Shown piece by piece: positions 44,600 through 62,710 of a stretch of 64,000 nucleotides of DNA (the stretch's first letter is position 1; each line of letters begins with the position of its first letter). The notes under the pieces were generated by a model. It was given only the letters and a program-made list of their open reading frames with translations, did not search any database and was not told the origin of the DNA. The stretch covers positions 186,001-250,000 of the forward strand of contig JAUZOL010000001.1 of the NCBI GenBank assembly GCA_030706455.1. Reading direction: 5' to 3'. This stretch comes from Bacteroidota bacterium (GTDB lineage: Bacteria > Bacteroidota > Bacteroidia > Bacteroidales > Paludibacteraceae). The position numbers and the translations under genes are program-made.

Positions 44600-44660
44600 T
44601 TAGTTTATATTAATTAGTTAACATACAATCAAAAACTTACACGACATAAAACAGACACTT

Positions 44661-45569: not shown

Positions 45570-45579
45570 ATGTTCAATA

Positions 45580-45978: not shown

Positions 45979-46202
45979 TTTTCAATTATTACTCTGTGAA
46001 TGCCTTTTACTTCGGTTTCTGTCACCGATAGCACTTTGAAACCTTGTTCCGTCGCACTGCGCGGAACGTTCTCCAATGGTTCGCCCTCGGTCAACAACAC
46101 CTCCAGTGTGTCGCCCGTTTTGAGTTTTGACAATTCAATTTTCGTTTTTACGAATGTCATCGGGCAATGCTCTTTTGTAATATCTAATCTGTAAGTTGCC
46201 AT
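45975..46202 (-). CDS. TusA/SirA-like sulfur carrier
   Basis: Small persulfide carrier of 75 residues. The family motif is EHCPMTFVKTKIEL with the single Cys 13 that carries the persulfide, close to the CPxP of TusA (the second Pro is replaced). Secondary structure pattern beta-alpha-beta-alpha-beta-beta is typical. It would pass sulfur from the desulfurase to downstream acceptors such as the DsrE-like protein or the E1/carrier pair. Overlaps the JAMM gene by 4 bp and lies 77 bp after the DsrE-like gene. Confidence 0.9.
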   Translation of the reverse strand: MATYRLDITKEHCPMTFVKTKIELSKLKTGDTLEVLLTEGEPLENVPRSATEQGFKVLSVTETEVKGIHRVIIEK

Positions 46203-46279
46203 AATTTGAGAATTAATCGATTAATTGGCAAAGGATTGAATCGTACGTTACCATCACATCCCCTTCGCCTTCTCACTTT

Positions 46280-46783: not shown

Positions 46784-46867
46784 GAATTTTAATTTGAAAA
46801 TGTGTCAATATGCTAATTTGCCAATACTGTCTGTTGAAATCTTGGAATTTTGAAAGTTGAAATCATT

Positions 46868-47674: not shown

Positions 47675-47763
47675 AGTTACATGTACAATTTCAGACTTTA
47701 CGATTTCAAATCCCGGCTATACGACGGATTCAATTCGTAAATCGTCAATAAATAAATTGTCAA

Positions 47764-47979
47764 TCAGCGTTGTCCGCCTCCCATAAAATAGAGAAAATCG
47801 AGCTCGTCGCCATCGTTAATTGTGGTTGTTTCATATCGATCACGAAGAACGAATTCGCCATTAAGCTGAATCGATACCATATCAGGTTGCTGCACATCGT
47901 TCAACTTTATTAAATCGAGTAACTGGATGGATGTTGTATCAATAGTTTGTTCCTGACCGTTTACAATAATCTTGCTCAT
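47764..47979 (-). CDS. ThiS/MoaD-like sulfur-carrier protein with extra C-terminal residues
   Basis: Ubiquitin-like sulfur carrier of 71 residues starting at ATG 47979 (MSKIIVNGQEQTID); a longer upstream frame runs into cysK and was rejected. The beta-grasp pattern and the ISIQLNGEFVLRDR-like middle are typical of ThiS. The C-terminus is DFLYFMGGGQR: the carrier Gly-Gly is followed by Gln-Arg, so it cannot be adenylated until trimmed. ThiS-like carriers with such tails (QbsE, HcyS) are processed by a JAMM protease, and one is encoded six genes downstream. With CysK next to it, a CysO-like role in cysteine formation is likely. Confidence 0.9.
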   Translation of the reverse strand: MSKIIVNGQEQTIDTTSIQLLDLIKLNDVQQPDMVSIQLNGEFVLRDRYETTTINDGDELDFLYFMGGGQR

Positions 47980-48013
47980 AGTTGTGTTTGTTAGTTGTGT
48001 CCTTTTGTTTAGT

Positions 48014-48955
48014 TTACTCTTTATCAAACTGATACAAAAGAGTAGAAAGATAACGCTCTCCTGTATCCGGCAGAATAACCACAATATTTTTACCCTCATT
48101 CTCAGGGCGTTTGGCAATCTGAATAGCTGCATAAGCAGCTGCTCCCGACGAAATACCAACCAGCAATCCTTCGGTACGAGCCAACTCGCGACCTACAGCA
48201 AAAGCATCATCACTTTTCACTTTAAAAATTTCATCGTAAATATTCGAATTAAGTGTATCGGGGACAAAACCGGCCCCAATGCCCTGAATTTTATGTGGCC
48301 CCGGCTGACCACCTGAAAGGACAGGCGAATCGAATGGCTCAACTGCCACTACCTTAATCTTCGGATTTTTCTTTTTCAGCACCTCGCCCACACCTGTGAT
48401 GGTACCACCGGTTCCTATACCGGCGACAACAATATCTACCTGACCATCGGTATCACGCCAAATCTCTTCTGCTGTGGTTTTTCGATGAATTTCAGGATTG
48501 GCCGGATTCTTGAATTGTTGTGGAATAAAGGCATTTTTGTACTCTTTCTTGAGTTCTTCCGCCTTGCGGATAGCGCCACCCATCCCTTCGAAACCGGGAG
48601 TCAGGACAAGCTCTGCGCCCAATGCTTTGAGAATGTTGCGTCGTTCGATGCTCATCGTTTCTGGCATCGTAAGTATAAGCTTATACCCCTTTGAGGCCGC
48701 TACAAATGCCAGAGCAATACCGGTATTTCCGCTGGTAGGCTCAATAAGCACTGTGTTTTTGTCAATTAAACCTTCCGTTTCTGCGGTTTCAATCAATGCC
48801 AGACCAATACGATCTTTCACACTTCGGGCTGGATTGAAGTATTCGAGCTTAGCAATAACCTTTGCCTGAAGAGCATAATTCTTTTCTACTCGTGTTAATT
48901 CCAGTAACGGAGTGTTTCCAATAAGGTCTGTCAGTTTCTCTACTACTTTTCCCAT
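48014..48955 (-). CDS. cysK: Cysteine synthase (O-acetylserine sulfhydrylase)
   Basis: PLP enzyme of 313 residues making cysteine from O-acetylserine and sulfide, or from a thiocarboxylated carrier in CysM-type relatives. The PLP Lys is in [11 protein letters not shown] (Lys 47); [12 protein letters not shown] binds the substrate carboxylate; [20 protein letters not shown] the phosphate; [11 protein letters not shown] completes the site. It is the first gene of the nine-gene operon. A duplicated promoter module (48985-49058) stands about 30 nt before its start, leaving a short leader. It has features of CysK more than of CysM, so use of the neighbouring carrier protein is an open question. 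Confidence 0.95.
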
Positions 48956-48984
48956 GACAATTCTATTTTGATGTATTTGTTAGT

Positions 48985-49058
48985 GATACAAATGTCCGAT
49001 AAAAAGAAAGATGAAAAAATCCCATAAATACGTCATTTTCATACCATAAGTATGGGAT
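48985..49058 (-). promoter_or_regulatory. Promoter/operator module of the cysK operon (copy 1 of 3)
   Basis: On the minus strand: an upstream box with CCCATACTTATGGTATG and GAAAAT (49058-49035), then GGGATTT, exactly 20 bp, and a -7-like GACATTTG (48996-48989) followed by TATC. The same order and spacing recur at 49227-49296 (plus strand) and 62638-62710. Predicted transcript start is about 25-30 nt before the cysK ATG. The upstream box could bind an activator or repressor; the regulator is not identified. Confidence 0.65.
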
Positions 49059-49226
49059 ATTCATTCCTCCATCTGAAAGCTTACAATTCGCGTGAATCCG
49101 TATTTATATATAACAATGAGCTTATTAGTCGATTATAACCTTGATACTATGGTCCCGATTGAGTTTGTTGACCAACTCCGGAACTTGGCGCTTAGATTGA
49201 CTTTTGTTACGTATAACCAGCATTTT

Positions 49227-49296
49227 ATACCTTTTGTATGGTAACGAAATACCATATATATGGGATTTATGATGAAAAAAAATGATATTACATTTG
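49227..49296 (+). promoter_or_regulatory. Divergent promoter/operator module (copy 2 of 3)
   Basis: Plus strand: ATACC, then GTATGGTAACGAAATACCAT, TATGGGATTT (to 49268), 20 bp, and TACATTTG (49289-49296), a perfect TAnnTTTG -7 box. The palindrome TATGGTA(A)CGAAATACCATA lies inside. It points away from cysK and would start a transcript near 49303 that has no protein gene before the terminator at 49611. Confidence 0.6.
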
Positions 49297-49302
49297 TTAC
49301 AT

Positions 49303-49645
49303 AATTATTGAACTTATTTTCAGCGTTTATCGATCTGGGAACAGCAATAATAAATAGCCGGAAAATTGAATCAGGAAATAGTATAACCCGATTTTGATAA
49401 TAATTAGAGAGCCATATTTGATTAGTGTTTGTTGGTGGATTAGTTCCAGTCTGTCATTGCCTTTCTTTCTGTCTTTACAGAAAAAGGCAATGATCTGGGC
49501 TAATTCTGAAAGGATTTTGGATATTGAAAAGACAACTAAAAAAAAGCTTTATTTGTGACATCATAATTTCATAATAGGGATTTGAATAGATAGATAATTT
49601 GAACACTTTGCAGTCTTTGGTAGGGATACCGAAGACTGTTTTTTT
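49303..49645 (+). ncRNA. Candidate small RNA divergent from cysK
   Basis: About 340 nt from the predicted start of the plus-strand module to a rho-independent terminator. Only a 22-codon open frame is present. The RNA would contain a strong internal hairpin (arms TCATTGCCTTT 49454-49464 and AAAGGCAATGA 49483-49493). Because its promoter resembles those of the cysK and scavenging operons, it is a candidate sulfur-responsive regulatory RNA. Boundaries are approximate. Confidence 0.4.
49611..49645 (+). terminator. Plus-strand rho-independent terminator
   Basis: Stem CAGTCTTTGG / CCGAAGACTG (49611-49620, 49629-49638) with one G-U, 8-nt loop, then a run of eight T from 49638-49645. It ends the candidate small RNA; no plus-strand protein gene explains it. 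Confidence 0.85.
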
Positions 49646-49670
49646 ATGGGAACAGACTAATATCTGACTA

Positions 49671-49707
49671 AAAAAAAGAAGCGACAGGCTTAAGACCTAT
49701 CGCTTCT
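49671..49707 (-). terminator. Terminator of the sulfur-scavenging operon
   Basis: Stem AGAAGCGACAGGC / CCTATCGCTTCT (49677-49689, 49696-49707) followed on the minus strand by seven or more U. It lies 12 bp past the stop of the B3/4-domain gene, the last gene of the operon. Confidence 0.88.
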
Positions 49708-49719
49708 ATACTTATTCAA

Positions 49720-50409
49720 TCAACCTATCTGACTCAGCATATAGGCTTCACCTCCGCAGTATTTCTGAACCTGATCTATCAGCTCGAAAACGGCATCTTC
49801 AATATAAGGAATGGGAGTATTGGCATTGCCCTGAACCACAAAGAATACATTGTGAGTATCGAGAGTTACCTTAGTCTTGTCAATCTGACGCACATCAAGA
49901 TAGCAAATAACTTCATTACTATCATCAATATACGAATATTCACCCGGCTTGATCGGTTTTGCATCCGATTCGCCAAGAGGAATGAATTTTTCCGTTCCGT
50001 TGGTAATCCGGAGATGCACATTGCCATCAATCCGATCCCAGTCATGAGCGCCAAGAGCCAGTTTATATTTTAGCGATATGCTGTTATAAATATCCACTAT
50101 CAGATTAACATGGGGAATAGTTCCTCTTTTTTCAAGAACTTTATACAGATTTTCGCTGGCCGAAAGGTTCTTCCGATTGGGAGCCCCCACTCTCTCGTGA
50201 AGTTGTCTGAATCCTTGCAGAATAGGATCTTCCTTAATATCTCCCAAACGATGGGCATATTGATACGCATTATCGATTATTTGTTGTTGATAAGAACAAA
50301 AATTACTATCACTTTCGCGATTTCTGACATTTTCGATGGTCAGATAAATTCCCCGAAGTCCGATTGGGTTTATTTCGGGGTGAGCAATAAATTGTTTTTC
50401 TATAGCCAT
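49720..50409 (-). CDS. B3/4 (PheT-like) domain protein
   Basis: Cytoplasmic 229-residue protein made of the B3/B4 tRNA-editing-like domain found in phenylalanyl-tRNA synthetase beta chains (IGLRGIYLTIENVRN; YAHRLGDIKEDPILQGFRQLHERVG; NLIVDIYNSISLKYKLALGAHDWDRI). Stand-alone B3/4 proteins are thought to act in trans on mischarged tRNA or on amino acids, but function is not settled. I start at ATG 50409 (MAIEKQFIAHPEIN), where the family similarity begins; an ATG 75 nt upstream is possible. Last gene of the operon, 110 bp after the permease. Its association with amino-acid uptake and trans-sulfuration fits an amino-acid-related task. Confidence 0.8.
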   Translation of the reverse strand: MAIEKQFIAHPEINPIGLRGIYLTIENVRNRESDSNFCSYQQQIIDNAYQYAHRLGDIKEDPILQGFRQLHERVGAPNRKNLSASENLYKVLEKRGTIPHVNLIVDIYNSISLKYKLALGAHDWDRIDGNVHLRITNGTEKFIPLGESDAKPIKPGEYSYIDDSNEVICYLDVRQIDKTKVTLDTHNVFFVVQGNANTPIPYIEDAVFELIDQVQKYCGGEAYMLSQIG

Positions 50410-50519
50410 GACATTTTCACCTTTTATAATCACAGAAGTAATTTCGATTGTAAAATTTCGGCTGAAATAGTTCTTACGAAACATCTACTATGGATACATT
50501 GATTTTCTAAAAAAAATAT

Positions 50520-51968
50520 CTACGATTTATTTAATTTACTCCTCTTTCGTCCGAATCCAAAATAAATAGCAAACCCTATAAGTAACCATACAATAAGACG
50601 TAGCCAGGTATCAAAAGGCAACGACACCATGAGAACAACACTGATTATAATGCTTATTATCGGCAGTATAGGCACAAACGGCGTTTTAAAAGGACGATGT
50701 ACTTCCGGTTGCGTTTTGCGCAAAATCAAAACACCAATACTTACAAGAATGAATGCCAGCAGTGTACCGATACTGGTCATTTCACCTACAATGTGAATAG
50801 GAGCGAAACCGGCAAACATGCATATAAAAATGCACAGCAAAATATTCGATTTGAAGGGTGTTCCATATTTTGCATGAATATCAGCAAACAATTTGGGCAA
50901 AAGACCGTCGCGACTCATGGAGAAAAACACCCTCGACTGTCCCATCAAATCAACCAGTATCACCGAAATATAGCCTATCAGGATAGCAAAAATAATCAGT
51001 TGTGACAACCAAGCAAAAGGAGTTTTGGCAATAGCAATAGCTACCGGTGCCGCACTGTCTTTGAATTCTTGATAGTTCGCCATTCCGGTCATTACATAAG
51101 CAAATGCCACGAATAAAACGGTACAAATAATTAAAGAACCAATGATACCGATTGGCATATTCTTTTTAGGATTTTTTGTCTCCTGAGCCATTGTAGCCAC
51201 TATGTCAAATCCTATGAAAACAAAGAAGATAACCCCTGCTCCACGGAATATGCCGCTAATGCCATACTCTCCGAAAGTTCCCGTATTGGCCGGAATAAAC
51301 GGATGGTAATTTACCGGATTGATATAATGCCAGCCAACAGCTATAAATGTCAATACGATTCCGACCTTAAGTATAACAATAATGGAAGTCACGATGGAGG
51401 ACAATCCTACTCCACGGATAATGATCAGTGTAATCGCCAACACGACCAGAATTGCCGGCAGGTTAATGAAACCGTGAGCAATTGTTCCATCTGCCAGAGT
51501 AATAGTTTCAAAAGGAGAGAGCGCCAGTTGGGTTGGAATATGAATGCCGTAAAATCCGAGAAATTTGATCAGGTATTGCGACCAGCTAATGGCTACTGTC
51601 GCCGCTCCCACCGAATATTCCAAAATCAAATCCCAACCGATAATCCATGCAAAAAACTCCCCGATGCTTGTATACGAATAGGTATAAGCACTACCTGCTA
51701 CCGGCACCAGCGAAGCGAATTCAGCATAACACAAGGCATTGAAACTGCAACAAACAGCCGCTACCACAAACGACAGAATAATAGCTGATCCTGCATTGTT
51801 TGCTGCGGCAATTCCGGTAAGAGAGAACAAACCCGCCCCAATAATTACTCCAATACCGATAGCAATCAAACCCCACGGACCGAGTTTTCTCTTGAGAGCA
51901 TTTATCCCGGTCTCGGAAGCTTCAGCAGTAAGTACCGATATTGTTTTTTTTCTAAATAAATTATTCAT
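50520..51968 (-). CDS. APC-family amino-acid permease
   Basis: Inner-membrane transporter of 482 residues with about 12-14 helices. APC superfamily motifs: GPWGLIAIGIGVIIGAGLFSLTG (helix 1, substrate-binding GxG), CYAEFASLVPVAGSAYTYSY (helix 3), FFVFIGFDIVATMAQETKNPKKNMP and RVFFSMSRDGLLPKLFADIH. The pattern is that of the cationic-amino-acid-transporter-like (CAT) subgroup. In this operon with a trans-sulfuration enzyme and carboxypeptidase, uptake of an amino acid released from peptides, perhaps cysteine/cystine or methionine, is the reasonable inference. 27 bp after the PLP enzyme gene. Confidence 0.92.
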   Translation of the reverse strand: MNNLFRKKTISVLTAEASETGINALKRKLGPWGLIAIGIGVIIGAGLFSLTGIAAANNAGSAIILSFVVAAVCCSFNALCYAEFASLVPVAGSAYTYSYTSIGEFFAWIIGWDLILEYSVGAATVAISWSQYLIKFLGFYGIHIPTQLALSPFETITLADGTIAHGFINLPAILVVLAITLIIIRGVGLSSIVTSIIVILKVGIVLTFIAVGWHYINPVNYHPFIPANTGTFGEYGISGIFRGAGVIFFVFIGFDIVATMAQETKNPKKNMPIGIIGSLIICTVLFVAFAYVMTGMANYQEFKDSAAPVAIAIAKTPFAWLSQLIIFAILIGYISVILVDLMGQSRVFFSMSRDGLLPKLFADIHAKYGTPFKSNILLCIFICMFAGFAPIHIVGEMTSIGTLLAFILVSIGVLILRKTQPEVHRPFKTPFVPILPIISIIISVVLMVSLPFDTWLRLIVWLLIGFAIYFGFGRKRSKLNKS

Positions 51969-51995
51969 TTTCGATAATTGTATATTATAATGTTA

Positions 51996-53168
51996 TCATC
52001 GGAGTGCCTTATCGAACTCTGAAAGAATATCATCAATATGTTCCAGACCGGTTGAGATGCGAATCAATCCTTTAGAGATACCTGCCCGCTCCAATTCTTC
52101 ATCACTTAGCGAGCGATGAGACGTTTTTGCAGGATAGGAAGTAGAAGTCGATACTCCAGCCAAGCTTGGAACCAGCTTAATAGTTTCAAGATTCCGGATT
52201 AAGTCATATGCTCCTTTCTCTCCATCATACAAGTCAATACTCAACATTCCACCGAACAAACCGTTTTGTAAGACCTTCAGTCCGGTTCGATGAGTGGATG
52301 AAGATTTCAGACCCGGATAATTGACCGCTTTTACTTTCTGATGATTCTCAAGGAATTGAGCTAATACCAGTGCATTCTCCGAATGTTTTTTTATTCGTAG
52401 CTCCAAGGTACGAAGACTGCGGATAATCAGCCAGGCATCGAAGGGACTCATAGTTGGTCCAAAGAGTAACCCGGTATTATAGATATCTTTAATCGTAACT
52501 TTATCGGTTACCACTACCCCAGCCGTCACATCACTATGGCCCGACAAATATTTAGTCGCACTATACACCACTATGTCGGCACCCAATTTCAAAGGCTGGC
52601 AAATGATAGGAGTAGCAAAAGTATTATCGACAATAAGTTTGGCATTATGTCGGTGTGTAATCTCCGCAATTTTGGGTAAGTTTACCACTTCCATTACTGG
52701 ATTGGAGATCGTTTCGATATAAACTACCCGGGTGTTTTCCCTAAAATAGGGAGCTATATCTTCATTTATAGGATCAACAAAGGTGACTTCAATATTAAAT
52801 CGCTGCAATTCATTCTTAATCAATTGAAAACTTCCTCCATACAACACATTGGCTGCAATTATGTGGTCTCCCGCATTCAACTGGGATAAAACACTGACTG
52901 ATATGGCTCCCATACCAGAAGAATAGACCTCTGCTGCTTCTCCTTCTTCAATGGTAGTCATTATTTCTTTCAAAGCATCGTGAACAGGATTACCGTTACG
53001 GGTGTAGATATAACCATGAGCCTGTTGCTCATATACCTGATCCAGGCTTTCAACGTCGTCGAATACAAACACAGAACTCATGGCAATAGGCACCGATTTT
53101 CCCCTGGAAATAGACTCAGGAATCTTTTCGCCTGCATGAATAAGTTGTGTTGCAAAATTCTTTTTCAT
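51996..53168 (-). CDS. Trans-sulfuration PLP enzyme (cystathionine gamma-lyase / methionine gamma-lyase type)
   Basis: PLP enzyme of 390 residues in the Cys/Met metabolism family. Motifs: YIYTRNGNPVHDALKE, YSSGMGAISVSVLSQL, ETISNPVMEVVNL, and VVYSATKYLSGHSDV with the PLP Lys at about 206. C-terminal LAGVSTSTSYPAKTSHRSL and GLIRISTGLEHIDDIL are family signatures. Specific activity (gamma-lyase on cystathionine, methionine or homocysteine; beta-lyase) cannot be decided. It lies between a Fe-S protein and an amino-acid permease, so it probably breaks down or interconverts imported sulfur amino acids and feeds sulfur to cysteine synthesis. Confidence 0.92.
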   Translation of the reverse strand: MKKNFATQLIHAGEKIPESISRGKSVPIAMSSVFVFDDVESLDQVYEQQAHGYIYTRNGNPVHDALKEIMTTIEEGEAAEVYSSGMGAISVSVLSQLNAGDHIIAANVLYGGSFQLIKNELQRFNIEVTFVDPINEDIAPYFRENTRVVYIETISNPVMEVVNLPKIAEITHRHNAKLIVDNTFATPIICQPLKLGADIVVYSATKYLSGHSDVTAGVVVTDKVTIKDIYNTGLLFGPTMSPFDAWLIIRSLRTLELRIKKHSENALVLAQFLENHQKVKAVNYPGLKSSSTHRTGLKVLQNGLFGGMLSIDLYDGEKGAYDLIRNLETIKLVPSLAGVSTSTSYPAKTSHRSLSDEELERAGISKGLIRISTGLEHIDDILSEFDKALR

Positions 53169-53198
53169 AATCTTCTAATAAAGAATTAAATTGAATAT

Positions 53199-54023
53199 TT
53201 ATTTTGAACCGAAACTGCGTAAGTGAACCCAGCTCCTGTAATCTTCTGCATTTTTATTTTCGGACAGAACTTTCAACTCATTCAGGTATTTTTTTTTGGT
53301 CATCCCATAAAGTTTACGATCTTTACCAACAGGACATACTTTGATACATACCCCGCAAGGATAGTGTAATTCCTTTTTCAATTGATGATGATAATCGGCA
53401 CATTTTTTCTTGTCCATAAGAGCTACCAGCTCTTTTCGAGTTGTAAAAGCCCCGGTAGGACAACAATGTTTGCACAATTCACACTTGACACACAACTCCT
53501 TATCTATAAGCGGATCTGAAGGCAGTTCGGCATCTGTAAAAACGGATACCAACCTGACTCTTGGTCCATATTGTTTGGTTAACAATGTGTGATTATACCC
53601 AATCGTTCCCAATCCTGCATATTTACCTGCAAGCACATGAGAAAATGCAGCCTCAGGCTTGTCAACCAACACGGAAATATCTCCATAGCCGTCGCGCGGA
53701 AAGAAAACAGCCCTGTAACCTTTTCTGTTGATGTATGCCGCCAGCTTGTAGGCAATTTCGTCCAAAACGCGGTTGGAAGTGTTGTACAGTTCCGAATAGA
53801 CTATAGACGGTGTACTTTCGAGCATTGGAAGAAAAACAGGCGTTCCGATAACAATTACCGATCGGGTGAAGGGAAAAATCGTTTGCGGAAAATAGTCAGG
53901 AGCAGTTTCCTTATATTCACTCCATCTTTCTACCGAAGCTATTCCAACGATATCAGCGCCCAATGTTTGACTCTTGCGAATGATCTCTTTTTTAAGTTTG
54001 TTTGTGTCGTAACCTGATGTCAT
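53199..54023 (-). CDS. QueG-like 4Fe-4S protein (epoxyqueuosine-reductase-related)
   Basis: Cytoplasmic 274-residue protein with two [4Fe-4S] motifs: LCVKCELCKHCCPTGAF (CxxCxxCxxxC-type, one Cys doubled) and PCGVCIKVCPVG. The N-terminal part (SQTLGADIVGIASVERW; GYGDISVLVDKPEAAFSH; GLGTIGYNHTLLTKQYGPRV) resembles QueG and reductive-dehalogenase-like cobalamin proteins, but it is shorter than QueG (about 370) and lacks the C-terminal HEAT repeats. Electron transfer or a reduction coupled to imported sulfur compounds is possible; no substrate can be named. I start at ATG 54023; an ATG 51 nt upstream adds an unrelated hydrophobic piece. 30 bp before the PLP enzyme gene. Confidence 0.8.
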   Translation of the reverse strand: MTSGYDTNKLKKEIIRKSQTLGADIVGIASVERWSEYKETAPDYFPQTIFPFTRSVIVIGTPVFLPMLESTPSIVYSELYNTSNRVLDEIAYKLAAYINRKGYRAVFFPRDGYGDISVLVDKPEAAFSHVLAGKYAGLGTIGYNHTLLTKQYGPRVRLVSVFTDAELPSDPLIDKELCVKCELCKHCCPTGAFTTRKELVALMDKKKCADYHHQLKKELHYPCGVCIKVCPVGKDRKLYGMTKKKYLNELKVLSENKNAEDYRSWVHLRSFGSK

Positions 54024-54109
54024 TTTTCGTTTGTATATCAACAACATGACAGCAGGAAGCGCTCCCACTGTCATATGTTATACGTATCAATCAGCTAATG
54101 ATTTTTCTT

Positions 54110-56785
54110 TTATTCGGCTGCGCCGTAAAAGCCATGTTCCGATAAATTGGCAAAAAACAAAGCATTAATAAATAGTCTGTTTGTCCCCGGCCAATAGTTG
54201 CGATAGGTCGGATCGTCGGCAAAAAGAACGATAGAGCCGGCTCCGCTTCCCCGAACTATGATTGCGGCCGAATTTTTAACTTTTGATATACTCTCTTTGG
54301 GTGCATAACCATTCACAAATGGATGCGAAGTATACTGAGCTACAGTGGCATACCGATTGGCACTTGGAACAAGAACCGTATTATCATTCTTATTGATATA
54401 GAGTTTTCTGTCAGACAGGCCGAATCCGATCGGATGCGTAATGTCTATATCAGCTTCAAAAATGGCTCCGTTTATGCGGCTTGCTCCTTCAACATCCTGT
54501 TGGGTAACATAATCCAGACGTTTGCCAGTCTCTTCTTGCTGATTAATACCAAATGTTCGTTGTCCATTTGTCTCCTGCACTTTTCCTTTGGTTGCCTCCG
54601 TTTTAACTTCAGCTGGAGAAACAGTGGCTCCTCTTCTGCCAGAGAAACTTGATTCTGCTAACTTTTCATTGATAAGCCCCTGATTAATCGCCCATGCTGT
54701 TGCGCTTTGGAATGTGACGAGAGTCCCTCCTGCATTTACCCAATTTTTCAATTTATCAACTAAAGATTTATCCCATGCTGCATAATTTCCTCCGGGAAGT
54801 ACAATGGTGTTGTATTTGTTCAGCAATGCCCGTTGGAAACTGTTGACATCGATTTTCACGACCGGAAGCGATAGTTGCTGATTTAATAGAAACCACACTT
54901 GACCAGCTTCTTCAGAATTAATACCCTGACCAAAAGCGACTGCCACCTCTGGCTTACTCACTGTCTTTATATTGCTGCTTCCCAAATCGATACCATCGAT
55001 ATTGAATCCGGTTGACACGGAGGTAAACGAAACACGAGCACTATCGGCAGCTATTTTGAGGGTTCTATACAACGAATCGGAGGAAATTGTTTGTCCGGCC
55101 ACCGGAATAACAAGAGAGCCGTAACTATACGTTTTGTTGCCGTCGGGAGTTGCAACTGTAAAAGGCTTGAATGCTGTTTTGACAAGCACCTTTTTATCCA
55201 GAAGATAATACAACGCTTTGCTTGCATTATAATCTGTCCAGCTTAACAAATAAGCGTAGTTTGACGCTCCACCCTTTATTTCTCCCTGTGGCAGACGAAC
55301 CGATGTAACAAGGCCTCCTTTTGTAACCGTGCTATTCACTTTTGCATATTGCAATCCATATGCTTGAATCAGGCTCCAGGCGGTATTGTCCATAAAAAGA
55401 CTGTCCTGCAATATATTTTCTTCAAAAACGGCATTCACAATCTGATAATTAGGCTGCTCGGAAGGAACGACATAAGCCTTCTTTTTTTGGAATGTTTTTC
55501 CGTTCTGCGAAAAGTTATCATTCAATTCATATACCTTCACGCGGTGTCTGAGTAGAATGCCAAGAAACTTCTGCGTTAAGTTTTCATCTCTACTATCGCC
55601 GAATACATAGGCTTTTGTATTACTTTGCCGTCCTTGTTCCAAAGCATTTTTGAAAAATTCTTTCTGGACTTTGAACAAGCCTTCTTTTTCGGCTACAGCA
55701 CCACAGATAGTAGCCAAACTGGTAGCCAAATGATTTCTGATGGTGAAAGAAAATGTGAGAAGGCCGTTAGTTGTTTCGCGCAAAATTCCACCCGAGCTGG
55801 CTTCTTCAAAAGTTGCCCCTACGCTTCCATAAAACTTAGGATAGGTGGAACCATAAATAGGCGATAAGTTGTCATAATTTTCTTTTGTAAAATAAAGAGA
55901 ACCAATAGCATCCAAGGCTTTTGCTTCATATTTCGCAAGCACCACATTGAAATCGTACAAAAATTGAGGAATGTGTGGGTTCTGATGGCGTTTGGGCGAC
56001 GGTTCAAAATAGTATGTTGCATTGGATCCCTGTTCGTGAAAATCAATTTGGATATTCGGATACCATTTATGAAAAAACTCCACTCTGTTGACACTTTCTA
56101 TTTGACTCAGGTTCAACCAATCACGATTAAGATTATTGAGATAATGATTCCCTCGTCCACCGGGCCATTGTTCCTGATGTTCTTTATCCAAACCATCGGC
56201 AACGGGAGGATATGATTTATACGAATTGTACCAATTGGCAGCTCTGTCGCGTCCATCCGGATTTTCAGAAGGATCGATCAGAATAACAGCCTCTTTGAGA
56301 AATTTAGCGGTTTCTTCGCTCTGGTTCGCTACCAGGTAATAGGCCGTCAACAAACTGGTTTCCGCGCTTGAGGTCTCATTGCCATGAACACTGTAACTTA
56401 AATCAACAATTACTGGCTCGTTTTTGCCTATTACAGGTTTTGAAGGATCAACCAGTGTTGCGTGAATCTTTTGAATATCATCTATGCGTCGGTAGTTGTC
56501 TGCCGAAGTAATAGTGGCAACTACTTGAGGCCGCAATTCATACGTTTTCCCTATTACTTCCACATGAATTTTATTCGACTTTTTTGCCAATTCATTAAGA
56601 TAAGCCACAATCTGATCGTGACGGGTATAATGTGAACCGATAGGATAACCTAAAAACTGTTCGGGGGAAGGAATTGAAGAATCGAAACTACCACTCTTCG
56701 GAAAATAGTAATCCGACTGTGCATTTGTTATTTGTGCGGCCAACAGCAGCACAAATGCGACAAGTATATGTTTTATTGTTTTCAT
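54110..56785 (-). CDS. Secreted M14 zinc carboxypeptidase with GATase1-like domain
   Basis: Secreted 891-residue metallopeptidase. Signal peptide MKTIKHILVAFVLLLAAQITNA. M14 catalytic domain (~50-370): zinc ligands in YSVHGNETSS (HxxE) and IDFHEQGSN (His), substrate Arg region NPDGRDRAANW, and catalytic Glu in GATFEEASSGG. The C-terminal half includes a class I glutamine-amidotransferase-like fold (YNTIVLPGGNYAAWDKSL; WVNAGGTLVTFQSATAWA), a common two-domain pattern in Bacteroidota M14 proteins. It would trim peptides taken up by the SusCD pair encoded just upstream, releasing amino acids for the permease downstream. 19 bp after the susD gene. Confidence 0.9.
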   Translation of the reverse strand: MKTIKHILVAFVLLLAAQITNAQSDYYFPKSGSFDSSIPSPEQFLGYPIGSHYTRHDQIVAYLNELAKKSNKIHVEVIGKTYELRPQVVATITSADNYRRIDDIQKIHATLVDPSKPVIGKNEPVIVDLSYSVHGNETSSAETSLLTAYYLVANQSEETAKFLKEAVILIDPSENPDGRDRAANWYNSYKSYPPVADGLDKEHQEQWPGGRGNHYLNNLNRDWLNLSQIESVNRVEFFHKWYPNIQIDFHEQGSNATYYFEPSPKRHQNPHIPQFLYDFNVVLAKYEAKALDAIGSLYFTKENYDNLSPIYGSTYPKFYGSVGATFEEASSGGILRETTNGLLTFSFTIRNHLATSLATICGAVAEKEGLFKVQKEFFKNALEQGRQSNTKAYVFGDSRDENLTQKFLGILLRHRVKVYELNDNFSQNGKTFQKKKAYVVPSEQPNYQIVNAVFEENILQDSLFMDNTAWSLIQAYGLQYAKVNSTVTKGGLVTSVRLPQGEIKGGASNYAYLLSWTDYNASKALYYLLDKKVLVKTAFKPFTVATPDGNKTYSYGSLVIPVAGQTISSDSLYRTLKIAADSARVSFTSVSTGFNIDGIDLGSSNIKTVSKPEVAVAFGQGINSEEAGQVWFLLNQQLSLPVVKIDVNSFQRALLNKYNTIVLPGGNYAAWDKSLVDKLKNWVNAGGTLVTFQSATAWAINQGLINEKLAESSFSGRRGATVSPAEVKTEATKGKVQETNGQRTFGINQQEETGKRLDYVTQQDVEGASRINGAIFEADIDITHPIGFGLSDRKLYINKNDNTVLVPSANRYATVAQYTSHPFVNGYAPKESISKVKNSAAIIVRGSGAGSIVLFADDPTYRNYWPGTNRLFINALFFANLSEHGFYGAAE

Positions 56786-56804
56786 TTTTACGACATATTA
56801 TGAA

Positions 56805-58154
56805 TTAATAGCCAGGATTTTGAGTTACATCAGGGTCGGAAAGAATATCAGACCCCGGAATCGGGAAGAGCCACAAATTTGTATTGGTAACTCCTAGAAC
56901 AGCACCCACTCTTTTTGTTCTCACAAGATCAAACCAACGGTGAGCTTCAAATGCAAACTCAATATTATTCTCATTTTCAATTGCCGTCAAAATATCAACC
57001 TGAGTTGTGGCCGTTGAATTTACCAAACCGGCGCGATTCCGTACAACATTAAGATCTGACAATGCTCCTGTAAGATTATTTTGTTGTGCTCTGGCTTCAG
57101 TCCTTATAAGGTAAAGCTCCGCTATCCGAATTAAATAAAACGGATCGGCTCCGGCAGTTGAGTTATACAATACTCCATAGACATTAGGGCTTGTGCCGGC
57201 AACCAGAGTGCTTCGAGAGCCCCCTATCGTTGGATCTTTCACTTTGGTCACAAATGAGTCGGATGGCTTTAGCGTGTATTGCCCACCCAGATTACTCAAA
57301 TACCAAAGATTCCAGAAACTATTTTTGTCATTCGTTGAAAATGTCAGTTCCAGAACAGATTCAGAGGTAAGATAGGGCGCGGTAAAGAACGCTTTATAAG
57401 GAGTAACCAAATTGTATTTTGTCGTTTCGGCTATCACCTGACTGGCATAGTTCTCGGCATCACTCCATTGTTGTCTGTAAAGGTGAAGGCGAGCTCGCAA
57501 TGCCCGGACGGAAGCCTTTTGTGCGCGATTTCGCAGGTTGCTGTCGGACGCTGTCACGTCGGGTAATAACTGTTCGGCTTTGATCAAATCAGACAATACC
57601 TGATCGTAAGTTTGATCCAGCGTACTTCTTTTAACACCTTTCAGAGAAGCGATATCTTTCGTTGGTGTCAAACGAAGCTGCACGCCACCCCAACCACGGC
57701 CCAGGTCAAAATATCCAAGAGCACGAATGAAATAGGCCTCACCAAGAATTTTGTTTTTTTCAGTGGTTGTCAGTGCCGGATCGGAAACAGACGGCACCAA
57801 TGAAATAATTGTATTTGCCGAGTTAATAGCCTGATATATTCCCTGATAAGCCGCAACAGTTACAACGTTATCGACTGGAATAGAAATCTGATCTAACTGT
57901 AAATACTGGGATAATGATCCGTTAAACACAACATTGTCTGCCGTGATTGTACCTAAAGTTGTATAAGACGAATAGTAATTCTGCACCTCGTCGTAAGCGC
58001 CGATTATTGCTGCTCTGGCCGTTCCGGCATCTGTAATGGCAGTTTCAGCAGAAATATTGCCATTCGATTTTTCATCGAAAAAGCTTCCACATGAATTCAA
58101 TACAAGAGTAAGCGCTAATAGAGAGATTCCTATGAAATATCTTGTTTTTTTCAT
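56805..58154 (-). CDS. SusD/RagB-family lipoprotein
   Basis: Surface-exposed ligand-binding lipoprotein, 449 residues; start ATG 58154 with lipobox LVLNSCGSFFDE. Family segments: GEAYFIRALGYFDLGRGWGGV, VRALRARLHLYRQQWSDAENYA and LIRIAELYLIRTEARAQQNNL, then NNIEFAFEAHRWFDLVRTKR. Shorter than the other two complete SusD proteins, in the RagB size range; RagAB-type pairs import peptides. Since the operon carries a carboxypeptidase and amino-acid genes but no glycosidase, peptide binding is the better inference than glycan binding. Confidence 0.92.
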   Translation of the reverse strand: MKKTRYFIGISLLALTLVLNSCGSFFDEKSNGNISAETAITDAGTARAAIIGAYDEVQNYYSSYTTLGTITADNVVFNGSLSQYLQLDQISIPVDNVVTVAAYQGIYQAINSANTIISLVPSVSDPALTTTEKNKILGEAYFIRALGYFDLGRGWGGVQLRLTPTKDIASLKGVKRSTLDQTYDQVLSDLIKAEQLLPDVTASDSNLRNRAQKASVRALRARLHLYRQQWSDAENYASQVIAETTKYNLVTPYKAFFTAPYLTSESVLELTFSTNDKNSFWNLWYLSNLGGQYTLKPSDSFVTKVKDPTIGGSRSTLVAGTSPNVYGVLYNSTAGADPFYLIRIAELYLIRTEARAQQNNLTGALSDLNVVRNRAGLVNSTATTQVDILTAIENENNIEFAFEAHRWFDLVRTKRVGAVLGVTNTNLWLFPIPGSDILSDPDVTQNPGY

Positions 58155-58173
58155 ATCTGTATTTTTTTGAAAA

Positions 58174-61100
58174 TTAGAATGTAACATTAATTCCGGTAGT
58201 TATGGTTCGGGGTTGCGGTGCCGTTGCCCAGTCATAACCGGCAGTATTCTGATTACTACTTTGTGAACTTACTTCCGGATCTAATCCTCTGTATTTTGTA
58301 AGCGTAATCAGGTTTGTTCCTGAAACGTAAACTTTTACGTTACTGATTCCTGCTTTGCGGGTAATTGACTTCGGAAGATTGTACGACAACGAAGCGGATT
58401 TTAACCGGACGAATGAACCATTATCCAGATAGCGAGAACTCAGATTGGACACAACACCTCCGTAATTATTGGCAGAACCTCCATTAGTATTGGTATCTCC
58501 ACTGTATGTAGTCAGTCGTGGAATATCAGTTATATCTCCTGCTTTTTGCCATCTTTCCAATTGTCGGTCTAAGAAACCGATGTTCTTTTGCGTACCTCCA
58601 TGTACCATGAAGAATTCGTTCATATTCATAATCTTATTCCCATGTACAAAAGAGACAAAGAGGTTTAGTTCAAAATTTTTGTATGTAAGCGTATTGGTGA
58701 AACCTCCCGTAAAGTCAGGATTGGCATTTCCAACGACCTGACGGTCGGCAGATGTAATTTTACCATCTTTGTTTACATCTTCATAAACAGCGTTTCCCGT
58801 TTTAGAATCGACATAAAGCTGCTTATAGAGATAAAAAGAATTTATCGCATAACCCTGTTTCAATATTGAAATATTTCGACCTGAAGCTCCCAGTGCAATG
58901 TCCGATGCCAATTTCTTAATCAGGTTTTTATTATGCGAAATATTGAAATCAGAAGTCCAACTAAAGTCTTTGGTGCTAATATTCACTGAATGAAAAGAAA
59001 ATTCAAATCCTTTATTACTAACCGCACCATAATTCTGGGTGTAGGAGGCGAATCCTGAACTATATGTCACTGGAACAGCCAGCAATAAGTCGTAGGTATA
59101 TTTGTCGTAATAATCTAGGGATACAGACAATCTGTTTTTCAACACTGAAAATTCAGTCCCAAAATCTATTTGGCGTGTTGTTTCCCACGTTAAATTCGGA
59201 TTGGCTAACTGAGAAGGTGCTGTTCCTGCCGTGCTCAGGTAACTGCCCGATCCTGACCAAAGTCCCTGAGAAGCGTAAGCGCCTATTCCACTCTGATTCC
59301 CCGACAAACCGATACTTCCTCTGAGTTTGAGTTCATCGAAAACTTTCAGCTTATTGACAAATTTTTCTTGGCTGGCATTCCACGTTACACCTCCTGAAGG
59401 AAAATACCCCCAGCGCTTATTACTACCGAATTTTGATGATCCATCTGCACGGATACTTCCGTCAATGGTATATTTATTGTCGTACGTGTATGAAGCTTTG
59501 CTGAAAAATGAAGCCAGCTTGCTTTGTGATTTTGAAGAGGTTCCGGTTGTAGTCGCGGCGGTCGAGATAGCTGTAAGGTCATTAGTTGCAAATCCAGATC
59601 CGGTAGCACCTGTCGATTGATACAAGCTGGAATTTATCGTATTACCAACCAAGGCATTGATATAATGCTTCCCGTTTTTGCCAAACGACTTGATAAACGT
59701 AAGTACCTGTTCATTAGTGAGCACCTGATTTTTCGTGTCGTAAGATGATGCAGAACCATTGGTGGCAATACCGGCGCTGATCGAGGTATTGGAATAGTTA
59801 TTTTCATACACATCATTATTGTCAAGACTCCAGCTGCTTCGCAATTTCAGATCAGGAGTTATCGCATAATCAGCAAAGATGTTACCGATGGCTCTTAACC
59901 CTACCGCATCATTGTTTAAGTTCTTAATAAGGGCAATATGGTTGTCGAAAGCACCATAACGGGCATAAGATCCGTCACTGTTATAGACGGGTAAATATGT
60001 TCTTACAAACAAGGCTGAATTGATGACTCCAACCGGGTTATTGTCGTTGCTACTGACATTGCGCCATGTCCGTGACAAGTTTAAGCTAGTCCCTACCTTT
60101 ATTTTATTTGTTATCTGATTATCATAATTCAAGCGACCTGAATAACGAGTGAATGCCGATGGCTTCACAATGGACTGTTGATTTAAGTAGCCGAGTCCTA
60201 TAAAATAGGTATCTTTATCACTTCCACCCTGAATCGACAGATCATAATTACTGGTATTTGCTGTCTTGAATACATCTTTCAGCCTGTCATATGTTTTCAG
60301 CGTATCGGGTTGGGCTGAAATTAATGTAGCTGTGGAAGGATCTTTACCATTGTCAATGGCAGTATTCCTTGCCGATTCATTTGCCAAAACAGCCGATTGT
60401 GGTCCATTCGTAAGAGAATATGATTTTGCAGCTTTTGACCATCCATGGGAGATCTGCAAATTAATTTTTGCCTTTGTGCTCTTTTTACCCCTTTTGGTAG
60501 TGACAATCACAACCCCATTAGCGCCTAACGAACCATAAATAGCTGTGGCATTCGCATCTTTAAGGATGGTAACATTTTCAATGTCATCAGGATTAATATC
60601 CGCCAAGGGGTTAGACTGAGCCTGATTGCCCATGCCCGTTTTAATCAGGTTGTCGCTACTGATAAAAACTCCGTCAACGATATATAGCGGATCGACGCCT
60701 GCGTTGATTGAATTTGTACCACGAATTCTAAAAGTAATACTTCCGCCCGGCACTCCTGAATTGGATGTCACCTGAACGCCCGTAGCCTTTCCCTGCAACA
60801 GTTCACTGAAACTGGAGGCGGCTGCATTATCCTTTAACACATTGGTGTTGAGAGTGGTTACCGCACCCGAAATGTATTTTTTACTCTGCGTGCTGTAACC
60901 TGTTACAACAACTTCATCCAATCGATTGGAAAGATCGCTGAGTACAATTTCAACTGGCACATTTTCATAAAGATCAACTTCCTGATTTTTATATCCGATT
61001 GCTCTCACTTCTAATGTAACCGGGAATGATTGTTTTACCACAAATTTGAAATCACCATTTACATCTGTCACAGAGCCAGCCGTAGTGCCTTTAATAGTGA

Positions 61101-61278
61101 CTGTTGCACCTATGATGGAAGCTTTTTTTTCGTCCAATATCTTGCCTTTTATTGTTGCCCCGTTTTGGGCAAAAGCGCCAAGAAAAGTTCCCGACAGGAC
61201 ACTTAAAAAAACATAAACACGCAAGTAGTTTCTGAGAAGTTGGATACAACTTCCCGGGAAATGGGATAATTTTGTCAT
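58174..61278 (-). CDS. SusC/RagA-like TonB-dependent transporter
   Basis: TonB-dependent outer-membrane importer, 1,034 residues, without STN domain. Signal region LRVYVFLSVLSGTFLGAFAQ, carboxypeptidase-regulatory-like domain (~40-115, ATIKGKILDEKKASIIGATV), plug (VVVTGYSTQSKKYISGAV; FRIRGTNSINAGVDPLYIVDG) and barrel ending TTGINVTF. It forms the uptake pair with the SusD 19 bp downstream. No glycosidase is near; the operon context (M14 peptidase, trans-sulfuration, permease) points to peptide or sulfur-compound uptake. No promoter is evident in the 80 bp before it, so it is probably transcribed from the promoter in front of the PstS-like gene. Confidence 0.94.
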   Translation of the reverse strand: MTKLSHFPGSCIQLLRNYLRVYVFLSVLSGTFLGAFAQNGATIKGKILDEKKASIIGATVTIKGTTAGSVTDVNGDFKFVVKQSFPVTLEVRAIGYKNQEVDLYENVPVEIVLSDLSNRLDEVVVTGYSTQSKKYISGAVTTLNTNVLKDNAAASSFSELLQGKATGVQVTSNSGVPGGSITFRIRGTNSINAGVDPLYIVDGVFISSDNLIKTGMGNQAQSNPLADINPDDIENVTILKDANATAIYGSLGANGVVIVTTKRGKKSTKAKINLQISHGWSKAAKSYSLTNGPQSAVLANESARNTAIDNGKDPSTATLISAQPDTLKTYDRLKDVFKTANTSNYDLSIQGGSDKDTYFIGLGYLNQQSIVKPSAFTRYSGRLNYDNQITNKIKVGTSLNLSRTWRNVSSNDNNPVGVINSALFVRTYLPVYNSDGSYARYGAFDNHIALIKNLNNDAVGLRAIGNIFADYAITPDLKLRSSWSLDNNDVYENNYSNTSISAGIATNGSASSYDTKNQVLTNEQVLTFIKSFGKNGKHYINALVGNTINSSLYQSTGATGSGFATNDLTAISTAATTTGTSSKSQSKLASFFSKASYTYDNKYTIDGSIRADGSSKFGSNKRWGYFPSGGVTWNASQEKFVNKLKVFDELKLRGSIGLSGNQSGIGAYASQGLWSGSGSYLSTAGTAPSQLANPNLTWETTRQIDFGTEFSVLKNRLSVSLDYYDKYTYDLLLAVPVTYSSGFASYTQNYGAVSNKGFEFSFHSVNISTKDFSWTSDFNISHNKNLIKKLASDIALGASGRNISILKQGYAINSFYLYKQLYVDSKTGNAVYEDVNKDGKITSADRQVVGNANPDFTGGFTNTLTYKNFELNLFVSFVHGNKIMNMNEFFMVHGGTQKNIGFLDRQLERWQKAGDITDIPRLTTYSGDTNTNGGSANNYGGVVSNLSSRYLDNGSFVRLKSASLSYNLPKSITRKAGISNVKVYVSGTNLITLTKYRGLDPEVSSQSSNQNTAGYDWATAPQPRTITTGINVTF

Positions 61279-61358
61279 AAATCTAATTTTTTAGGTTAAG
61301 TGTCTCCTCAAACCAATTGCAGACGGAAAAAGGGAGGCACTTTTTTGTTGAAATAAGT

Positions 61359-62294
61359 TTATTGGATTGCAGTGAGCAATTTTTCTTCTGTCTGTGCTTT
61401 TTGAGCAGAAAGGGTAGATTCGTCGAGATTCAAAAAACCGGCTTCATGATTATAGCTTTGACCCGAAGTAATTACCCACTTGAGGAAAGATCTTAAAATC
61501 TTATTATCTCTTTGTTCATTTGAAAGAGCTAACCCGAAATTCTGAACAGGAATACTTTCCACGCTGTTCTTTTCCAGCAAAGAAATGGCATTATCCAAGT
61601 CAAGAGAGTTCAAAACTTCTTTTTGTTGTGATTTGAGGCTGAGCGGCAAAAGTGCAATATCCGACCTTAATTTACGACTTTGCAGGTCATACGCGTAGTT
61701 GATGCTGTTATAAGTCACGCCGGTAGTATCTTTTTTAATTGCATTGAGCAGATAGATATCATCACCCAATACTTTTTTACCTTTCAGATTTACCGGTTTG
61801 ACTCCAAAATACCTAGCCAAAGCAATGGTGGTAGGCGCCTGGCTTTCTCTAGCATAAACGGTTGCTATATACTTGCTTTTGGCATCCTGTTGATCTTCCG
61901 AATATTCATCCGACTCATCAAAGAACAGCTTTTTCAATACTTTCTTTGACAATCCGCCTTTGCCAGCTTTGCTCAGAATCGGATTTTGTTTGTTGCTGAC
62001 AGGAACCAAGGCATACCTCCCAACATAAAAGGCGGTTTGATTGGCCAACTGATCCGAGTCTGTCAGTTGATAAGCCACTACATTCAATCCCTGTGCATCA
62101 GGAATTTGTTTGGTATTAATTTTTATCTGTAACTGAGGATTCAATTTATTATATTCAGAAACCCATTTCTCAATAAGCGGAAAAGTAAATTTGGCACCTT
62201 TCAGATAAAACGATCTGTTTTCTTTTTCCTGCCCATAAACTGAAGCAGAAAGCAAGAGCACCAAAGCAAGAGATTTAATTACATTAGTTCTCAT
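61359..62294 (-). CDS. PstS-like periplasmic substrate-binding protein
   Basis: Secreted 311-residue protein of the PBP-like (PstS/phosphate-binding type) superfamily. Signal peptide MRTNVIKSLALVLLLSASVYG from ATG 62294. Segments FYLKGAKFTFPLIEKWVSEYNK, FYVGRYALVPVSNKQNP, SKYIATVYARESQAPTTIALARYFG and SINYAYDLQSRKLRSDIALLPL follow the two-lobed binding-protein pattern. There is no ABC permease or ATPase nearby, so it is not a simple phosphate transporter subunit; it may deliver or sense a ligand for the SusCD pair encoded 80 bp downstream. First protein gene of the scavenging operon, preceded by a long leader with the shared promoter module. Confidence 0.75.
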   Translation of the reverse strand: MRTNVIKSLALVLLLSASVYGQEKENRSFYLKGAKFTFPLIEKWVSEYNKLNPQLQIKINTKQIPDAQGLNVVAYQLTDSDQLANQTAFYVGRYALVPVSNKQNPILSKAGKGGLSKKVLKKLFFDESDEYSEDQQDAKSKYIATVYARESQAPTTIALARYFGVKPVNLKGKKVLGDDIYLLNAIKKDTTGVTYNSINYAYDLQSRKLRSDIALLPLSLKSQQKEVLNSLDLDNAISLLEKNSVESIPVQNFGLALSNEQRDNKILRSFLKWVITSGQSYNHEAGFLNLDESTLSAQKAQTEEKLLTAIQ

Positions 62295-62353
62295 AATCAA
62301 TAATATATTAGTTATTTTAGTTAGCGCACGACAAAAAATAGTTTGCCACAACA

Positions 62354-62410
62354 TTTGATAAAATCAAGAGAAAGGAATCTGGCGAAATGAATGCAATAAG
62401 CATTATCAAA
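62354..62410 (-). other. Possible structured leader segment
   Basis: TTTGATAA (62403-62410 on the minus strand) pairs with TTATCAAA (62354-62361), enclosing an AATGC/GCATT hairpin. It lies in the 5' leader of the PstS-like gene, 60 bp before the start codon. Pairing is AT-rich and only 8 bp, so its reality is uncertain. Confidence 0.25.
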
Positions 62411-62489
62411 GAGAGCTTTGTAAAAAAAAGACGAATAGATTCCCGGAACTTTCAACAAGGAGTCCCCTTGTAATTTTGTATATATAGAG

Positions 62490-62540
62490 TCAACAACATC
62501 TATACATGCACATTCGGATTATCATATTCATTCCCGGCAT
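62490..62540 (-). CDS. Candidate Met/Cys-rich leader peptide
   Basis: A 16-codon frame MPGMNMIIRMCMYRCC followed by TGA, in the leader of the scavenging operon. Five Met and three Cys make half its residues sulfur amino acids. It begins about 90-100 nt after the predicted transcript start and ends about 200 nt before the first structural gene. A hairpin (ACAAGG/CCTTGT) and a T8 run follow within about 70 nt. Resembles leader peptides of amino-acid attenuators, but no strong terminator/antiterminator pair is obvious. Confidence 0.35.
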   Translation of the reverse strand: MPGMNMIIRMCMYRCC

Positions 62541-62637
62541 AAGTATATTGATTGGGGTTATACGAACTTACTTACCTATTAGCTTTCTGAGTTGTAAAAA
62601 TGACTGATACTGGATCAATCATAAAATTATGTTTTGC

Positions 62638-62710
62638 GATACAAAATTCACTAAACTTAATGATACCCAAATCCCTTCTGTATGGTATTTTCATAGCACA
62701 TGTATGGTAT
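62638..62710 (-). promoter_or_regulatory. Promoter/operator module of the sulfur-scavenging operon (copy 3 of 3)
   Basis: Minus strand: ATACCATACATGTGCTATG then AAAATACCATAC (from 62710), GGGATTTG, 18-19 bp, and -7-like GAATTTTG (62649-62642) followed by TATC. Twenty of the first 24 positions equal the cysK copy, and the spacing to the -7 box differs by only one base. Predicted start near 62630, giving a leader of roughly 335 nt before the PstS-like gene. Confidence 0.6.

Follow-up and report, generated by a model that had tools for sequence, protein, structure and literature searches.

Results

Three promoter regions are built from tandem palindromes

The window analysed here is a stretch of 64,000 nucleotides from a Bacteroidota bacterium of the family Paludibacteraceae (GenBank assembly GCA_030706455.1, contig JAUZOL010000001.1, positions 186,001–250,000, forward strand). 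It contains three intergenic regions of related sequence, referred to as copy 1 (48985–49058, minus strand), copy 2 (49227–49296, plus) and copy 3 (62638–62710, minus). Copy 1 precedes cysK (48014–48955, minus), which encodes a cysteine synthase A (TIGR01139, 469 bits; cutoff 351). Copy 3 precedes the gene of a periplasmic substrate-binding-like protein (61359–62354, minus; 29.8 bits with the PstS model, cutoff 205, and no Pfam match), and copy 2 faces approximately 350 bp without a convincing open reading frame (ORF). The initial annotation had read these regions as one promoter module under a common regulator, plausibly responding to sulfur or cysteine supply. All three were confirmed at these positions and strands. 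Upon recounting from the sequence, copies 1 and 3 agreed at 20 of the first 24 positions, and the proposed gap between a GGGATTT box and a (T/G)AnnTTTG element held, with 20, 20 and 19 bp in copies 1, 2 and 3 respectively. The elements following this gap are GACATTTG in copy 1 (48989–48996, minus), TACATTTG in copy 2 (49289–49296, plus) and GAATTTTG in copy 3 (62642–62649, minus).

Reading the copies beside the upstream regions of cysK homologues in other genomes of the family revealed that each copy consists of two tandem 18-bp palindromes of the consensus ATACCATANNTATGGTAT, with centres 22 bp apart and four bases, usually A-rich, between them. The palindrome core spans 16 bp, TACCATA-NN-TATGGTA, in a 7-2-7 layout. 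Copy 1 reads ATCCCATACTTATGGTAT-GAAA-ATGACGTATTTATGGGAT (distal palindrome 49041–49058, proximal palindrome 49019–49036, both minus; the left arm of the latter is degenerate), copy 2 reads ATACCTTTTGTATGGTAA-CGAA-ATACCATATATATGGGAT (distal 49227–49244, proximal 49249–49266, both plus), and copy 3 reads ATACCATACATGTGCTAT-GAAA-ATACCATACAGAAGGGAT (distal 62693–62710, proximal 62671–62688, both minus). The ATACC/CCATAC boxes, GAAAT and GGGATTT described earlier correspond to the left arm, spacer and right arm of these palindromes, GGGATTT being the edge of the second one. The shared motif is thus real, but the sub-motif originally taken as its unit was dropped because it is only marginally above chance on its own: GAAAW-N8-16-GGGATTT has three matches in the window against an expectation of 0.73, and three or more occurred in 2 of 100 shuffles. 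The tandem palindrome was put in its place. Allowing up to two mismatches, it matched five times in the window (both strands counted), always at the three copies, and not once in 100 shuffles.

Further tandem sites precede sulfur and scavenging genes

In the 4.0 Mb genome of the organism, the tandem pattern with up to three mismatches identified nine sites, eight of them with two mismatches or fewer (the one at C235 has three); the reversed control gave none. An extra single-orientation match with three mismatches (C1:272072) was taken as chance. The genome-wide search bore out the idea of a shared module, as further sites were found before an O-acetylhomoserine (OAH) sulfhydrylase and a second cysK, cysK2 (C68:28089), and before a Cys/Met pyridoxal phosphate (PLP) enzyme (C235:10380). 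The other four sites lie before an M28 peptidase and SusCD (C1:264743), before SusCD (C7:4950), before a TonB receptor with a gamma-glutamyltransferase on the other side (C2:10320), and before a periplasmic binding protein that resembles the first copy-3 gene and is followed by SusCD (C321:4013); outside C7, the names SusC and SusD were assigned by eye. Genes of sulfur amino-acid metabolism follow four of the nine sites (copies 1 and 3, C68 and C235). A scan with the single palindrome (up to two mismatches) yielded 33 sites vs 17 in the reversed control, which is too noisy to extend the regulon; the two that were examined, C309:2211 and C15:6837, fall inside ORFs. At one locus (L061:115–10408), two consecutive SusC/SusD pairs share near-identical SusC N-termini, and a tandem site lies between the pairs.

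The tandem keeps a fixed distance to the −7 element

The consensus of the Bacteroidetes housekeeping sigma factor is TAnnTTTG at −7 and TTTG near −33, as given in PMC7366714. The −7 element is exact in copy 2 and has G as its first base in copies 1 and 3; the −33 region carries an exact TTTG in copy 3 only, with TTTT in copy 1 and TTTA in copy 2. We determined the spacing on 40 oriented sites, i.e. the nine of the window's own genome plus 31 of the 32 tandem sites (up to two mismatches) in loci L095–L114. The distance from the tandem end to the A of A..TTTG was 23 nt in 37 and 22 nt in three of these sites, whose orientation was chosen by the −7 element and 31 of which were selected for the presence of A..TTTG; the 32nd tandem site had no A..TTTG on either side and was left out. 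If the transcript starts four bases past the G of the −7 element, the two palindromes are centred at approximately −42 and −64, and the proximal one abuts the −33 region. Because the tandem-to-promoter geometry is fixed, as a class-II-like activator would need, activation is suggested. A genome pattern fused to the −7 element matched copy 2 only, its gap being one base short for copies 1 and 3, and is uninformative on rarity.

Relatives carry the sites before genes of sulfur acquisition

The tandem (up to two mismatches) was present in 28 of 150 genomes of the family, and the reversed control matched in none of the 150. Target genes were named partly from Pfam and partly by eye. In genome G001, sites precede a cysK-ThiF-DsrE-JAB-acetyltransferase-encapsulin cluster, SusCD, CysD-like and CysN genes, a binding-protein transporter permease and a tetrapyrrole methylase. 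The G143 targets are the candidate regulator described below and two clusters opened by a site, whose later genes encode a sulfatase (after a binding protein and SusCD) and a radical SAM protein (after a TonB receptor). In G023, a site again precedes the regulator, here with ThiF and DsrE, and others stand before OAH sulfhydrylase, cysK and further PLP enzymes. Both G061 and G147 carry them before the sulfite reductase flavoprotein and hemoprotein, and G061 also before CysD-, CysN- and CysH-like genes. The CysD- and CysH-like products belong to the PAPS-reductase family, and the CysN-like product is a GTPase.

Some sites stand beside genes of other kinds. A tandem in G001 (L098:6219–7023) precedes an ECF sigma factor gene, after which come an apparent anti-sigma gene and a TonB receptor; a sigma-factor cascade may thus be fed by the regulon in this genome. 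In G023, a tandem lies between NifH-like and radical-SAM NifB-like genes (L102:1812–4637; names by eye), a hint that the sulfur regulon of this genome may include nitrogenase-related genes.

We also scored 80 loci of named organisms that had been fetched by alignment similarity to the candidate regulator and not by the motif; one from the window's genus (L116) was dropped, leaving 79. Matrices were trained on the 40 oriented sites, and upstream regions shorter than 200 bases (tandem matrix) or 150 bases (single-palindrome matrix) were skipped. The single-palindrome matrix reached at least 12 bits in 27 of 35 cysK or OAH-sulfhydrylase upstream regions, compared with 22 of 905 other ORFs (Fisher 8e-32; p values overstate independence here because the named loci are related, and all Fisher values given ignore phylogeny). 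Many of the 22 positive other ORFs are divergent neighbours of the same site. At a threshold of at least 18 bits, the tandem matrix detected 12 of 20 OAH-sulfhydrylase-class genes, 1 of 18 cysK genes, none of 74 regulators and 2 of 902 others. The matches include Bacteroides fragilis (L158, L177), where 22 nt separate the tandem from TATCTTTG. Loci that lack the 22-bp tandem, in Prevotellaceae and elsewhere, retain a palindrome at the proximal position: when 13 hand-picked loci were re-read, 11 showed a palindrome 23 nt (10 loci) or 22 nt (one locus) before A..TTTG; L135 and L118 lack that spacing, and their called ORFs start close after the palindrome. Upstream of cysK in L135, L138 and L166, a second palindrome lies approximately 40 bp further upstream, not 22 bp, with the proximal one in the same place where the −7 element is readable. 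Since sites in the own genome and in relatives precede sulfur genes, the comparative evidence favours the proposal of a shared regulator tied to sulfur or cysteine supply.

A NarL-type protein co-occurs with the sites

The candidate regulator is a GerE-domain protein of approximately 220 residues, encoded outside the window at about 29655–30317 of C68 (L064:12655–13317), near OAH sulfhydrylase and cysK2. Homologues were found in ten further loci fetched for cysK or tandem sites. Among 75 named relatives (the 80 minus five without an ORF labelled as regulator), 32 have a sulfur gene within 4 kb of the regulator, a lower bound as some contigs end early. In B. fragilis and B. graminisolvens, the candidate gene lies close to a site-bearing OAH sulfhydrylase. 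Within the family, the regulator is present in 26 of the 28 tandem-positive genomes, and a tandem occurs in only 2 of 100 genomes without it (Fisher 3e-13): G039, which is 55% complete, and G107, with one single-orientation match. Presence was defined as a match of at least 130 bits; six genomes in which all matches were weaker were thus scored as negative. A wide gap separates the scores: full-length orthologues exceed 200 bits, two genomes together hold three partial matches at 137–148, and all others stay below 120.

The GerE domain (PF00196) scored 54–68 bits (cutoff 23.5) in all four proteins tested. The Pfam Response_reg model reached 23.1 of the required 30.2 bits in one of them and was unlisted in the other three, and the 25 NCBIfam matches listed (of 28) for the own regulator were all far below their cutoffs. 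Full-length profile matches were to VraR/RcsB/NarL, and the best structural and profile matches were LiaR, RcsB, VraR and NarL. An AlphaFold2 model (mean pLDDT 90, pTM 0.64) comprises receiver-like and helix-turn-helix (HTH) domains. Its receiver domain alone superimposes on VraR and RcsB with template-modelling scores of ∼0.8; full-length chains give weaker values of 0.45–0.57 because the domain arrangement differs. Across 54 sequences, D11, D57 and K108 are invariant and S85 is conserved in at least 90%, which makes phosphorylation possible; the assignment to receiver positions is our own, and one of the usual acidic pair is not acidic. By eye, no histidine kinase was noticed beside the regulator in the inspected loci, in which no dedicated search was made. 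A cysteine between the receiver-like and DNA-binding domains, C130 (L116:9001–9657), is nearly invariant in the 54 sequences and could possibly act as a thiol switch.

The palindrome had also brought to mind Rrf2 proteins of the CymR/IscR type. The Rrf2 model (PF02082) had no match at E ≤ 0.001 in the own genome, which is 94.8% complete, and the control was positive in 13 of 14 genomes. Control by CymR or IscR types is unlikely because the genome has no Rrf2 match.

Gene clusters downstream of copies 1 and 3

After cysK, the minus-strand cluster of copy 1 contains genes for ThiS (47764–48159), ThiF (46868–47674), a DsrE-like protein (46280–46783), a JAB protease-like protein (45580–45978), a hexapeptide transferase that is CysE-like by eye (44661–45569), a family 2B encapsulin shell (43163–44599; 566 bits, cutoff 400) and a SufS-type cysteine desulfurase of the encapsulin-cargo type (41456–43081; 553 bits, cutoff 475; 770 of the 800 bits needed with the cargo model). 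From gene order and strand, we infer that this cluster (41456–48955, minus) is one operon.

The scavenging cluster of copy 3 continues beyond its first gene from 61278 to 49720, likewise on the minus strand, with SusC (58174–61278), SusD (56805–58187), an M14 peptidase (54110–56785), a 4Fe-4S protein with weak similarity to QueG and reductive dehalogenases (53199–54074), a Cys/Met PLP enzyme of the lyase/sulfhydrylase type (51996–53168), an amino-acid permease (50520–51968) and a B3/4-domain protein (49720–50484).

A putative small RNA downstream of copy 2

Copy 2, which has the best-formed −7 element of the three, is followed by a putative structured transcript (49302–49645, plus) that ends in a terminator-like hairpin and a T run. 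The longest frame with a bacterial start inside this interval has 54 codons (TTG, 49394–49558), and the longest from ATG has 22 (49490–49558). Its fold has a z score of −3.26, to which the terminator-like hairpin contributes, and none of 100 shuffles was as stable. Rfam gave no gathering-level match in the whole window; five matches on 48900–49720, one of them to an Enterococcus small RNA and none to a riboswitch, were all far below gathering scores. A sulfur-sensing riboswitch or T-box in the leaders was considered and rejected, there being no Rfam match at gathering level. Relatives of the RNA were found neither in seven other genomes of the genus nor, by blastn of 49060–49720, in the other fetched loci. 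The best cysK matches in these genus mates are 66–69% identical, and because the cysK operon is seemingly not shared with them, the missing relatives are weak evidence against an RNA. It is plausible that copy 2 drives a sulfur-controlled small RNA.

Discussion

Collectively, these observations make it likely that all three copies act as promoters in a single sulfur regulon of Bacteroidales, which is read by a NarL-type activator under sulfur or cysteine shortage. The sites, their geometry, the target genes, the gene neighbourhood and the co-occurrence with the regulator are read directly from the genomes. A tandem-palindrome promoter of fixed geometry marks Bacteroidales sulfur genes, and the NarL-type regulator is its most likely reader. 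We infer the binding protein, the activating mode and the signal from these data as follows. A dimer of a NarL/FixJ (LuxR, GerE)-family protein would most likely occupy each palindrome, which would place two dimers per promoter at a distance of about two helical turns. Under sulfur or cysteine shortage, they would act from a class-II-like position to activate transcription that uses the housekeeping sigma factor. This would switch on the cysK/sulfur-carrier cluster, encapsulated cysteine desulfurase included, for cysteine synthesis, SusCD systems and a Cys/Met PLP enzyme for the scavenging of peptides and thiols, and a structured RNA from copy 2. The initial annotation is thus extended by the anatomy of the tandem palindromes, by the range of the regulon and by a likely regulator. 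Its outcome is a site consensus, a fixed promoter geometry, one candidate gene and a list of predicted targets in cysteine and homocysteine synthesis, sulfate assimilation, SusCD scavenging and the encapsulin.

Several observations weigh against this reading. The 22-bp tandem is not universal, as several Prevotellaceae loci have one palindrome or two approximately 40 bp apart. The tandem (up to two mismatches) is absent from 24 regulator-positive genomes of the family, including G060, G104 and G114 of the window's genus. A score of 12 bits is found upstream of the regulator in only 12 of 72 cases, mostly through sites shared with a divergent neighbour, and autoregulation is therefore not general. 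Five of the nine own-genome sites drive outer-membrane or scavenging genes or an RNA with a presumed sulfur role. Order-wide, a stricter fused pattern occurred in 21 of 294 genomes, vs 19 (by our count) with reversed-control matches, i.e. without enrichment; either the pattern is too rigid or the sites differ there. The regulator, present in 35 of the 294, was found in 7 of the 21 pattern-positive genomes (the own genome included) and in 1 of the 19 control-positive ones, which is a hint only.

The sign of control could be the opposite, with the same regulon kept off at plentiful cysteine by a repressor whose operators block the −33 region. The proximal palindrome abuts this region, where a repressor could act too, and CymR and McbR, known sulfur master regulators elsewhere, are repressors. 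However, a constant 22–23 nt to the −7 element over 40 sites is what a polymerase-contacting activator needs, a lone palindrome holds the same spacing where the 22-bp tandem is missing (e.g. L144, L153, L157, L159, L186, L191), and the NarL/RcsB/LiaR relatives are often activators, so that repression appears rather unlikely. It is less probable still that the sulfur regulon is real and its palindromes are bound by another factor, e.g. a LysR/CysB-like or Lrp-like protein, the NarL-type gene being a co-inherited neighbour. In favour of such a factor, 24 regulator-positive genomes are without strict tandems, and further regulators such as the ECF sigma factor also follow some sites. Yet the NarL-type protein was the only transcription factor noticed to recur beside cysK or OAH sulfhydrylase in many genomes, although no search was aimed at LysR or Lrp proteins. 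It is also found together with the sites, Rrf2 proteins had no match in the genome, and dimers of the NarL type would be suited to a 7-2-7 palindrome.

Alternatively, the regulon might mainly answer another cue (redox state, iron or peptide supply), with the sulfur genes as one branch. The five own-genome sites before SusCD/TonB loci or the RNA would fit, as would, if its gene carries a site, the appearance of the B. thetaiotaomicron OAH sulfhydrylase BT2387 in an iron-limitation study (2.0-fold change, p 0.09; PMC10434189). We consider this improbable, as in relatives the sites stand before genes for sulfate activation and reduction, for sulfite reductase and for cysteine and homocysteine synthesis, which have little in common but sulfur acquisition. 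A chance resemblance between stretches of AT-rich intergenic DNA, or a dispersed repeat, can be practically dismissed as the origin of the copies. The earlier sub-motif was indeed only marginally above chance, but the tandem was absent from all 100 window shuffles and from the reversed control in 150 genomes, its promoter spacing is fixed, and it is enriched before sulfur genes in loci that were not chosen by motif.

The proposed activator resembles the NarL/FixJ response regulators NarL, RcsB and LiaR/VraR in its GerE domain and its predicted receiver and HTH fold. NarL sites are inverted heptamers in a 7-2-7 layout, which the 16-bp palindrome with TAC at its edge shares. Unlike these regulators, it has sulfur genes as targets, its receiver remains below the Pfam cutoff, and no adjacent kinase was noticed in the inspected loci. 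As generally described, CymR, the cysteine master regulator of Firmicutes, is alike in placing cysteine synthesis, scavenging and Cys/Met PLP enzymes under one regulator; it differs in being an Rrf2 protein, which the own genome does not match, and the promoter geometry here suggests activation. CysB and Cbl, LysR-type proteins of Proteobacteria, activate sulfate assimilation and cysteine synthesis under sulfur limitation. Their targets are similar, whereas the protein family and the site would differ if the candidate proves correct.

The titles and abstract beginnings among the literature matches listed contained no description of the motif, of the regulator or of a sulfur or cysteine master regulator of Bacteroidota. 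The protein family and the promoter logic are of known kinds. These listed matches contain neither the site nor the regulon, nor a NarL-type master of sulfur metabolism. More tentatively, the protein might be a master regulator of sulfur assimilation in Bacteroidales from gut Bacteroides to environmental relatives, a response-regulator scaffold without a dedicated kinase that senses sulfur directly, for example through its near-invariant cysteine or a sulfur metabolite, and controls synthesis, an encapsulin compartment, SusCD scavenging and a sulfur-responsive small RNA. How gut Bacteroidales control the use of sulfate, sulfatases and cysteine is relevant to hydrogen sulfide and to the sulfated glycans of the host.

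With its family 2B shell, SufS-type desulfurase and hexapeptide transferase, the copy-1 cluster resembles the SrpI-type operons of family 2 encapsulins and cysteine desulfurases. The available text of PMC8346489 reports family 2B desulfurase systems, neighbouring serine acetyltransferases, and an induction of the family 2A system of S. elongatus by sulfur starvation. Unlike in those operons, the encapsulin here lies inside a cysK-ThiS-ThiF-JAB cluster behind a tandem-palindrome promoter, a mode of control not mentioned in that text. The sulfur-carrier cluster for cysteine synthesis runs on into the encapsulin shell and desulfurase genes and thereby connects a protein nanocompartment with the predicted sulfur regulon.

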